Positions 32,740 to 36,028 of a stretch of DNA of 64,000 bases are shown here, in pieces. Below the pieces are notes generated by a model that had not been told where the DNA came from, made no database searches, and was given only the letters and a program-made list of their open reading frames with translations. Origin of the DNA: Alphaproteobacteria bacterium (GTDB lineage Bacteria; Pseudomonadota; Alphaproteobacteria; Rs-D84); contig JAFVOS010000011.1 in assembly GCA_017505705.1 (NCBI GenBank), forward strand, positions 171,449-235,448, in the 5' to 3' direction. Every line of letters begins with the position of its first letter. Positions within the stretch are counted from its first letter, which is position 1. The translations under genes were made by a program, and so were the position numbers.

Positions 32740-32800
32740 AAGCACCAGATTTTAATAAAAACTGGTGTTTTTTTATCCCGGCATTTGCCGGGTTTTTTAT
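32740..32800 (+). terminator. Double terminator after the Cys-rich gene
   Basis: The first hairpin CACCAG-A-TTTT-aat-AAAA-A-CTGGTG at 32743-32767 is followed by seven T. The second, CCCGGCA-tt-TGCCGGG at 32777-32792, is a copy of the recurring palindrome followed by six T. Two terminators in a row block read-through into the converging queH operon. Confidence 0.85.
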
Positions 32801-33342
32801 ATCTTTCTGATGCTAAATTCGCACCCGCAATAATTTTGGCGATAAAAATCAGAATTGCGGTTTATCTGTATGCGTAAATTTTCATCCCATTTTATGGGTA
32901 AATATTCAATATCATCGCATGTGTTTGTGGCGGCGGTATCCACCTGGGCTTGGTCTTTGTGACGGGAAACACCCAACACGCTTGCAATTGCGTTGTATCC
33001 ATTTTCACGTGCAAAACGCACCGCACGACGGAAACGATATTCGAAACACAGCGAGCATCGTGCACCACGTTCAGGTGCATCTTCGAACCCACGCACAGCA
33101 TTGCGCCACGCATCATGATCGTATTCCAGAACAGCATATTTCGCACCAATGGATTCACAGTATTTTATCTGTTCGGCCATGCGTTTTGTGTATTCGGATT
33201 CTGGAAAAATATTTGGATTAAAAAACAGAACAATAAAATTATCAACGCCGTCAATTGCGCCATCCTTTAATTGCTGTATTGCGCCCGCAGAACATGGCGC
33301 ACAGCAAGACAATAATACAACACGTAATTTATCGTTATTCAT
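32797..33342 (-). CDS. queH: Epoxyqueuosine reductase QueH
   Basis: Last step of queuosine synthesis in tRNA, replacing QueG in some bacteria, 181 residues. The N-terminus carries CCAPC (C13, C14, C17), the middle RCSLCFEYR (C96, C99), and the C-terminus YCGCEFS (C172, C174); these are the cluster- and metal-binding cysteines of the QueH (DUF208) family. FNPNIFPESEYTKR is also typical. It follows directly after the tandem Cys-rich genes and metG, on one strand. Confidence 0.93.
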   Translation of the reverse strand: MNNDKLRVVLLSCCAPCSAGAIQQLKDGAIDGVDNFIVLFFNPNIFPESEYTKRMAEQIKYCESIGAKYAVLEYDHDAWRNAVRGFEDAPERGARCSLCFEYRFRRAVRFARENGYNAIASVLGVSRHKDQAQVDTAATNTCDDIEYLPIKWDENLRIQINRNSDFYRQNYCGCEFSIRKI

Positions 33343-33654
33343 TTATTTAGTTTTCTGTTTTGGCTTGCAGCAACAAAATTTCATTGCCTGGTCTGCCATT
33401 TTATAGGCCCGCCCCAATTCTTTTATATTTTTTACAATAATTGTCGCTGTGCGATTATCCGATGAAATTGGATTGTATTCCACATTTAGATTATATTTTC
33501 GCAAGGCATCAATAACATTGCATCTGTCACAGTTTTTACACTTTTTACATCCTGGCAAAATATAGTCCCCACAATAACATTTAACATCCGCCATATGAAA
33601 ATATTCATTGGATGTTGTGGACGATTTAACATAGATTGTCATTTTTTTGCCCAT
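33343..33654 (-). CDS. Cys-rich small protein, tandem paralogue B
   Basis: A 103-residue protein of unknown function. It is a paralogue of the adjacent gene at 33665-33976: both start with a strand (MTIYVKSS vs VNVYIKTT), contain a Cys cluster at about 25-45 (here CYCG, then CKKCKNCDRC), and end with a helix (ELGRAYKMADQAMK vs EIERAYTIANRAIR) after a TIIVKNI/TILTQNI strand. The C-terminus adds FCCCKPKQK. The fold could be a small alpha/beta domain with an inserted zinc knuckle. AAGGA precedes the ATG. It lies in the metG-queH group, one base before queH. Confidence 0.75.
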   Translation of the reverse strand: MGKKMTIYVKSSTTSNEYFHMADVKCYCGDYILPGCKKCKNCDRCNVIDALRKYNLNVEYNPISSDNRTATIIVKNIKELGRAYKMADQAMKFCCCKPKQKTK

Positions 33655-33664
33655 TTATGCATCC

Positions 33665-33976
33665 TTATCTGTACAATTGATGTCTGGCCAATCGTATCGC
33701 ACGATTTGCGATTGTGTACGCACGCTCTATTTCATTGATATTCTGTGTTAAAATTGTAATCTCTGGCATAGATTTATTGGCTATTTTGTAATCCACATTT
33801 GGCAGTCGTTTAGAAATATACTCGGCCACCCGGCATTTTCCACCATTTTGACACACAGGTACATATTTATCTTCTTTCAGTGTTATTTCACGACATTTCC
33901 AACATGGCAGACTTATCTTGGTCAAATATCCCATCGAAGACGGTGTTGTTTTAATATAAACATTTACTTTCCACAT
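33665..33976 (-). CDS. Cys-rich small protein, tandem paralogue A
   Basis: A 103-residue protein of unknown function, the upstream member of a tandem pair with 33343-33654. It has four cysteines at about 25-50 (CWKC, then C and C in VCQNGGKCRV) suitable for one zinc ion, a basic helix RVAEYISKRLPNVDY, and a C-terminal helix EIERAYTIANRAIRLA. Identity to the partner is moderate, so the duplication is old or the pair has diverged in role. It follows metG by 12 bases behind AAAGGG. Confidence 0.75.
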   Translation of the reverse strand: MWKVNVYIKTTPSSMGYLTKISLPCWKCREITLKEDKYVPVCQNGGKCRVAEYISKRLPNVDYKIANKSMPEITILTQNINEIERAYTIANRAIRLARHQLYR

Positions 33977-33988
33977 ATTTTACCCTTT

Positions 33989-35980
33989 TTATTTTATAAA
34001 TATATTACCGACAACTGCGTCGTCACCTAATTCGATGATATTTTTATCATCATCACCAACCCCCAATTCAGCCGCACCACACATCATGCCAAATGATTCA
34101 ACACCGGCCACAGTGCGCTGGGCGATTGGTTTTTTGATTGTTGGCAATTGCGCCCCAACCGGTGCCAGTACGCTTACCATCCCAGCACGTACATTTGGTG
34201 CGGCACACACGATTTGTACCGGCGCATCCGCCCCATAATCCACCGACAAAATATGCAAGTCATCACGTGACGGATGATTTTCGACAGATACTATCTTCGC
34301 AACAACCGGTTTGGGTGTGTTGTCTTCTTTTTTTGGTGTGTATTTTTCGGTTAATTGTGTAATTTTTTCATCATCAATACGATTAAACAGATTTTCTGGC
34401 ACAACAAATTCCGCCCCATTTTCAACCCGTATCTCAAATTTTTCTGGCCAAGATAAATCTTTTGTTGTTGTAAATATGTTCTGCATCTTGGTTGCGGCTG
34501 TCGGGATAAATGGTGCCGACACACGTGCATATAAATCAATTAACTGGAAACATTGGTTCAATACCGCACCAGCCGTATCCATGTCGCCATTTTTTACCAA
34601 TGCCCATGGTTCCATTTTTGTCATATATTCATTTCCAATCGCATACAGTCCACGCAACGCTGCAATCGATGCACGAAATTCACATGCATCCAAAGCTGCG
34701 GTTAATTCAGCCAGTTTTTCATTAATCTGTGATTCTAAATCTGAATCCGTTGCGCCTGCGCTTGGTACATAATTACCAAAGTTTTTCGCAGTTAATTTGC
34801 ATACACGTGATACAAAGTTCCCCAGCATCCCATTCAAGTCTTTGTTCACAATATCAGCAAAACGTGCGATTGTGAAATCTGTATCATCTGTTTCTGGCGC
34901 AGATGCGATTATTGCATACCGCCAATAATCCGCAGGCAATTCACGAATTGCATCGTTCAAGAATATCCCGTTACCGGTTGATTTAGAAATTTTGGCACCA
35001 TTAAAGTTCAAGAAATTCATGCCTTTTAAAACATCAACTGTTTTCCAGTTGTCGTTCATGGCTAATTCTTGGGCTGGGAAAAATATAGAGTGGAAAGAAA
35101 CATTGTCTTTACCCATAAATTGAGTGTAGTGAACATCATCGCCACCATGCCACCAGTCCGCCCAATTTTCATTTGCCGCCTGGGATATTGAAACGTACCC
35201 CCATGGTGCATCGAACCATACATAGAAAACCTTGTTTTCATATCCTGGTTTGTTAACCGGAATCCCCCACTTTAAATCACGTGTGATTGGACTGTCTTGT
35301 AATCCTTCGTCCAGCCATTTGTTCGCAATTGCCAACGCTGTCTTGGACCATCCTTTGCGTGAATCAATCCATGTACGCAATTTGTCTTGCATTGCGCTGG
35401 TGCGAAAATAGAGGTGTTTGGTTTCCCGCATTTCAACCGGTGACGACGCATCAACTGCACTGTGCGGGTTAATCAGTTGTTCTGGTTCCAGTGTTGCCCC
35501 ACATTTACCACATTCGTTTCCATATGCCCCGTCATATCCGCATTTTGGACATGTGCCAATAACAAATCTGTCGGCCAAGAACATCTGTTCGTTAACAGAA
35601 TAAGGCTGCATAGAAGACTTTTCTACAATCATATTTTCTTGTTCCAGACGCAAAAATAATGATTGAATCAAATCATGGTGTTTTTTTGTATGTGTTCGCC
35701 CATAAATATCAAAAGACAAATTAAAATCACGCACAGATTGTTCGTGTGCCGCACGATACTTATCAACGTATTCTTCGATTGGCATATTTTCTTTTCTGGC
35801 GCCGACTTCGCTGGTTGTGCCATGTTCATCTGATCCGCAAACAAACAAAACATCACGCCCACATGCACGACAAAAACGTGCATAAACATCACTGGGTAAC
35901 CAACATCCCACCAAATGCCCGATGTGCAGATTGTTGTTAACATACGGTAATGCAGACGTAATCAAATATTTTTTTGCCAT
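33989..35980 (-). CDS. metG: Methionyl-tRNA synthetase with C-terminal tRNA-binding domain
   Basis: Class I synthetase, 663 residues. HIGH motif is HIGH at 19-22 (NNLHIGHLVG), the zinc-binding knuckle CPKC...CGKC lies near 140-160, and KISKS (KMSKS motif) is near residue 330. A C-terminal EMAP/OB-fold domain (about 555-663, IVSVENHPSRDDLHILSVDYG, VCAAPNVRAGM) adds tRNA affinity and dimerisation. It heads the minus-strand group metG, two Cys-rich genes and queH. Confidence 0.97.
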   Translation of the reverse strand: MAKKYLITSALPYVNNNLHIGHLVGCWLPSDVYARFCRACGRDVLFVCGSDEHGTTSEVGARKENMPIEEYVDKYRAAHEQSVRDFNLSFDIYGRTHTKKHHDLIQSLFLRLEQENMIVEKSSMQPYSVNEQMFLADRFVIGTCPKCGYDGAYGNECGKCGATLEPEQLINPHSAVDASSPVEMRETKHLYFRTSAMQDKLRTWIDSRKGWSKTALAIANKWLDEGLQDSPITRDLKWGIPVNKPGYENKVFYVWFDAPWGYVSISQAANENWADWWHGGDDVHYTQFMGKDNVSFHSIFFPAQELAMNDNWKTVDVLKGMNFLNFNGAKISKSTGNGIFLNDAIRELPADYWRYAIIASAPETDDTDFTIARFADIVNKDLNGMLGNFVSRVCKLTAKNFGNYVPSAGATDSDLESQINEKLAELTAALDACEFRASIAALRGLYAIGNEYMTKMEPWALVKNGDMDTAGAVLNQCFQLIDLYARVSAPFIPTAATKMQNIFTTTKDLSWPEKFEIRVENGAEFVVPENLFNRIDDEKITQLTEKYTPKKEDNTPKPVVAKIVSVENHPSRDDLHILSVDYGADAPVQIVCAAPNVRAGMVSVLAPVGAQLPTIKKPIAQRTVAGVESFGMMCGAAELGVGDDDKNIIELGDDAVVGNIFIK

Positions 35981-35994
35981 TTTTATTTGCCTTT

Positions 35995-36028
35995 TGTTAA
36001 AAAAAAACAGACACCAACGGGGCGTCTG
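35995..36028 (-). terminator. Terminator of tRNA-Val(GAC)
   Basis: On the minus strand CAGACGCC and GGTGTCTG form an imperfect stem followed by eight T, about 70 bases beyond the tRNA 3' end and just ahead of metG. Some read-through into metG is possible. Confidence 0.6.

Follow-up and report, generated by a model that had tools for sequence, protein, structure and literature searches.

A small four-cysteine protein family encoded directly upstream of queH in Enterousia-like alphaproteobacteria

What are two small, cysteine-rich genes doing between metG and queH, and are they linked to queuosine modification? We examined this locus in a stretch of 64,000 nucleotides (the window) from contig JAFVOS010000011.1 of assembly GCA_017505705.1. 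The source genome is 0.96 Mb and 97% complete. In named records, the relatives of its QueH are mostly from gut or rumen alphaproteobacteria, including one Candidatus Enterousia. Enterousia is described as a member of the order Rs-D84, with genomes of about 1 Mb (PMC12306168). The host of the window is a Ca. Enterousia-like alphaproteobacterium. A first-pass annotation had described the two genes as tandem paralogs from no known family, and it suggested that they might be linked to metal supply, Fe-S loading, or tRNA metabolism. It proposed checking whether their homologs conserve the cysteines and the queH neighborhood.

The basic description holds. The translated open reading frames are 103 amino acids each at the expected coordinates, and the translations contain four cysteines in P0002 (C25, C28, C42, and C48) and nine in P0001 (C26, C28, C36, C39, C42, and C45, plus C94-C96). 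The two proteins are indeed paralogous (BLASTP E = 7e-12, with 27/95 residues or 28% identical), and the flanking genes are metG and queH, as originally read; the assignment of queH is confirmed by Pfam (see the table). Compared to the nearest relative, G135, the dN/dS of the two genes is 0.15 and 0.35. Judging from these ratios and from relatives in other species, P0002 and P0001 are real genes. We will call their family A. The source genome contains only these two copies, both in the window.

Table. Features of the metG-queH region, in window coordinates
Feature	Position	Strand	Description and basis
P0002, first family A gene	33665..33976	-	103 aa, four Cys; ORF, BLASTP, profile alignment, AF2 model
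P0002 Cys-cluster region, codons C25 to C48	33833..33904	-	near-invariant columns of the family
P0001, second family A gene	33343..33654	-	103 aa, nine Cys (six in cluster, three in tail); AF2 model
P0001 Cys-cluster region, codons C26 to C45	33520..33579	-	sequence
CCC in P0001 tail	33367..33375	-	not conserved across family A
metG, methionyl-tRNA synthetase, first gene in the run	33989..35980	-	ORF; name read from the sequence, without a family search
queH, epoxyqueuosine reductase	32797..33342	-	PF02677, E = 1.1e-44; start abuts the P0001 stop
Likely terminator, inverted repeat CACCAG..CTGGTG with a T-rich flank on each strand	32743..32767	.	sequence reading; between queH and convergent P0003
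Neighboring terminator-like site	32777-32792	+	terminator scan
Terminator-like hairpin in the tRNA-Val/metG gap, likely upstream limit of the transcription unit	36008..36028	-	terminator scan, weak

Because the gaps between metG, P0002, P0001, and queH are just 12, 10, and 0 nt, these genes form one tight four-gene run, with likely terminators on both flanks. Immediately before metG is a tRNA-Val (gac) gene. The scan found 8 terminator-like sites in the region, versus 4.3 (sd 2.0) in shuffled sequences, so the support for the hairpin upstream of metG is weak. Convergent to queH is another cysteine-rich gene, P0003 (32319-32738 on the + strand, 139 amino acids). Its matches, best conserved in the C-terminal cysteine-rich part, occur in 62 of the 183 genomes; a genome often has several of them, at scattered places. 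We rejected P0003 as a part of the same system because it is convergent and likely separated from queH by a terminator, and because its relatives occur in multiple copies at dispersed sites.

To delineate family A, we used a profile, A1, built from an alignment of 37 rows. Searching with P0002 as a single sequence had given matches in 18/142 genomes. The profile matched 52 of the 183 genomes in the host's family, from 4 of 13 genera (g1, g3, g7, and g8), and searching 201 genomes of the order returned the identical set of 52, with no member outside the host's family. Samples of 289 genomes from the class and 398 from the phylum yielded no member outside the host's genus. In 50 of the 52 matching genomes, the gene lies directly upstream of queH. 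The other two are G094, where the contig ends just after metG, and G121, where the frame is broken (E = 0.004) and the match is not a credible member. Adding G060, which was found at a looser cut-off, gives 51 confirmed genomes (and loci) with 53 open reading frames, from four genera of one family.

Neither of the outcomes that the first-pass annotation named as refuting its idea, homologs lacking conserved cysteines or any conserved queH neighborhood, was seen. The cysteines are conserved across these homologs. The four cysteine columns are filled in 53, 53, 52, and 53 of the 53 proteins, and the sole exception, from G002, has a cysteine at another spacing. Besides these four, only one column is conserved above 60% (an isoleucine in 37/53). 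The proteins are basic: 52 of the 53 carry a positive net charge, and the median is +7. Across 13 same-slot pairs, the dN/dS of family A genes is 0.12-0.40, as compared to 0.08-0.11 for queH and 0.135-0.147 for metG (four pairs each). Family A genes are under purifying selection, yet they evolve faster than queH or metG.

That neither protein belongs to a known family was also borne out in Pfam, NCBIfam, and PHROGs. Among 37 members, the best Pfam hit had E = 0.00066 in a single member, and no Pfam family hit more than two members; NCBIfam families were matched in one member each; and PHROGs gave matches in at most two members (best E = 0.0019). A scan with the family consensus reached E = 0.061 in Pfam, and the best hit among PDB sequences had E = 0.33. 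There was no credible match in phage records by tblastn (best E = 0.8) and none in viral contigs. We found no copy of family A outside its slot before queH, so a mobile-element origin is unsupported. Among open-licence papers in PMC, we found no pointer to such a gene.

The cysteine motif does not fit two familiar Fe-S motifs. Bacterial ferredoxins use CX2CX2CX3C; in alignment A1, the second-to-third and third-to-fourth cysteine distances vary widely, unlike the fixed spacing of this motif. The SPASM/twitch motif is CX2CX5CX3C with an upstream cysteine pair. It does not fit either: in family A, the third and fourth cysteines are mostly separated by at least 5 residues, and there is no conserved upstream pair.

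The predicted structures come close to the layout proposed in the first-pass annotation (strand, Cys cluster, helix, strand, helix) but have more strands. AlphaFold2 with the family alignment gave strand-strand-Cys-helix-strand-strand-helix for both proteins. The P0002 model (pLDDT 82, pTM 0.71) has a small additional hairpin in its Cys region, where the P0001 model (pLDDT 71, pTM 0.62) has a short additional helix. Fold searches found no clear relative, with best Z scores of 4.4 and 4.8, both weak, and a best Foldseek E of 0.19. Weak alignments, obtained with both models, included the split beta-alpha-beta protein YML108W (PDB 1n6z; Z = 3.9 with rmsd 3.6 over 77 residues and Z = 4.6 with rmsd 3.4 over 76) and the beta-grasp of protein L (PDB 1mhh; Z = 4.2 with rmsd 3.1 and Z = 4.8 with rmsd 2.7, each over 58 residues). 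Unrelated small proteins often reach Z scores in this range, and these alignments are silent on the Cys cluster. A viral fold search was headed by small uncharacterized proteins; the hit from Erwinia phage Ea35-70 (probability 0.92, E = 0.065) is too weak to interpret.

What ties family A to queH is its position. In all 51 confirmed genomes, queH is immediately preceded by a family A gene in the same orientation, which is the co-localization to look for in an accessory protein of QueH. Among the profile matches in the 183 genomes of the family, whose loci we inspected, there was no credible member away from queH. The distance from the family A stop codon to the queH start codon is between -20 and +16 nt in all 44 loci where it could be measured (in the other 7 of 51, the script could not set the queH start). 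This anatomy shows translational coupling of family A to QueH; the function of family A is inferred. metG precedes family A in 48 of 51 loci. In one of the others (G095), the contig end cuts the locus; in G169 (L157) and G134 (L163), the order is tRNA-Val(gac) - A - queH, as if metG had been removed, so the link is to queH and not to metG. Distances within family A correlate with those between the QueH proteins (Mantel r = 0.55, 0/2000 permutations, n = 49), so family A is inherited with its neighbor, as vertical descent would predict; this is evidence of shared inheritance and not of shared function. Of the 183 genomes, 168 encode Tgt (PF01702), the source genome among them, so there is a pathway in which QueH can act.

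QueH does not need family A, as queH is retained without it in many relatives. We classified 137 queH loci by their content between metG and queH: 50 have A, one has A and another family that we will call B, 47 have nothing at all, 19 have family B, two have another open reading frame, six have a gap without a long open reading frame, and 12 have no match to metG upstream. The 47 empty loci are not what an obligate partner of QueH would give. In several other genera, metG abuts queH. On a quick tree of QueH (136 rows, with many forks open), there were at least 18 changes between having and lacking A and at least 14 changes for family B. The simplest story is that family A was gained at the base of its group and then lost many times, although re-gain by recombination is not excluded. 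One loss has left a direct trace: in G057, the last codons of the family A gene remain between metG and queH as a deletion scar, while the sister genome G060 has the gene. We dropped an apparent joint loss of queH and A in four genomes of the same genus (G073, G077, G085, and G105) because metG was not found in them either; the search returned only open reading frames of 772-778 amino acids in two of them, which are probably pheT. The metG-queH region is probably missing from these assemblies.

Other features of the region also vary. Family B proteins have 139-226 amino acids, many end near "DIVLNKxLxQIYPxxTG", and they have no usable match in Pfam. Family B is found in 53 of 183 genomes, with up to several copies, both inside the slot (such as L033, L044-L047, and L074) and outside it. 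Two further groups of unannotated open reading frames (235-261 amino acids) lie directly before queH in L082, L087, L090, L102, and L105, where metG was not matched within the upstream stretch that was fetched. Like family A, family B and the P0003-like genes are small, variable, lineage-specific, and located around queH, and P0003 is cysteine-rich as well; unlike family A, they occur at many places in the genome, and they do not match the family A profile significantly. The C-terminal domain of the methionyl-tRNA synthetase is present at 47 of 47 loci with A versus 36 of 47 empty loci, a comparison that is not controlled for relatedness. At some loci (L043, L045-L047, L051, L053, L079, L104, and others), the synthetase match ends near residue 536-550, and the C-terminal tRNA-binding domain seems to be absent. 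QueH itself has an in-frame insert at one spot in G084, G052, G024, G038, and G125 (L133-L136 and L138). In G052, the insert includes a complete DUF559 endonuclease-like domain (PF04480, E = 1.6e-35), and QueH from G080 (L137) has only a short flanking element, without that domain. From the sequences, this looks like a mobile element that landed in frame, with or without its nuclease.

Our preferred explanation, to which we assign a probability of roughly 0.4, is that family A is a dispensable, lineage-specific metal-site protein that is made with QueH and acts as its non-essential helper. Near-invariant cysteines on a fast-changing basic scaffold suggest a structural metal, and because the cysteine spacing is loose, the metal is most likely zinc. 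The four cysteines would bind one zinc, which would pin the loop that connects the first hairpin to the first helix. The basic charge suggests RNA binding, and the closeness of the stop and start codons suggests QueH or its tRNA as the partner. The basic body and the C-terminal helix might thus contact either QueH or an RNA, which would most likely be tRNA. The amount of the family A protein would be tied to that of QueH by translational coupling. The protein could then help with substrate delivery, stability, or tuning, in epoxyqueuosine reduction or in the handling of the tRNA; its frequent absences imply that this role is helpful and not essential. P0001 would be a diverged duplicate whose cluster has two further cysteines, perhaps for a second metal or for another cluster. 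A more elaborate version seems doubtful: a zinc-stapled RNA-binding domain, coupled in translation to QueH, would tune epoxyqueuosine reduction, and P0001, a duplicate that acquired additional cysteines, would use them as a metal sensor or carrier. In these gut bacteria with reduced genomes, tRNA modification would then respond to metal through a control whose loss leaves the pathway intact.

The original suggestion of a link to metal or tRNA metabolism thus stays a conjecture. Counting against it are the many queH genes without family A and the unrelated small genes in the same slot, and counting against a helper of QueH are a dN/dS above that of queH and the weakness of the fold matches. Adjacency to queH could also be vertical inertia. 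Nearly as likely as a helper is a passenger of the operon: family A would occupy a variable slot between metG and queH, its job (for example in stress, interaction, or conflict) would be unrelated to queuosine, and the neighborhood would be merely inherited. The slot does host family B at 20 of 137 loci, and other open reading frames or gaps at more; family B and the P0003-like genes are multi-copy elsewhere; and A is often missing while queH is intact, as the remnant in G057 illustrates. But A itself, unlike B, was not found apart from queH in the genomes searched, it still precedes queH in the two genomes that lack metG at this spot, and the close stop and start codons are kept at every locus where they were measured.

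QueH is reported to be an Fe-S enzyme, and the cysteines of family A might instead hold an Fe-S cluster, so that the protein donates electrons or clusters to QueH. Four near-invariant cysteines, six in the cluster of P0001, and queH as the partner gene would all fit, but the loose spacing would not, the C-x-C that forms the first cysteine pair of P0001 is unusual for a ferredoxin, and relatives without A keep queH. We consider this improbable. It is also conceivable that the protein matters less than its reading frame, with A as a device for translational coupling or attenuation that sets the level of QueH. The narrow range of stop-to-start distances is what such a device would show. However, dN/dS values well below 1, near-invariant cysteines, and a predicted fold indicate selection on the protein, and metG directly abuts queH where A is absent. 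This is the least probable account.

If family A does help QueH, then it has a counterpart in Trm112-type proteins, which are small zinc-binding activators of tRNA methyltransferases. Both would be small proteins with cysteine ligands, and family A is suspected of helping a tRNA-modifying enzyme. Unlike Trm112-type proteins, family A has no Pfam match, its putative partner is QueH, and it is dispensable in close relatives. The predicted strand and helix order of family A would also set it apart.

Reduced genomes keep little idle content, so a fast-changing four-cysteine protein that keeps pace with QueH in four genera offers a testable lead on what assists or tunes queuosine modification. The presence or absence of family A among close relatives provides a natural comparison. 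More broadly, the junction between metG and queH is a place where several unannotated families of small proteins come and go.
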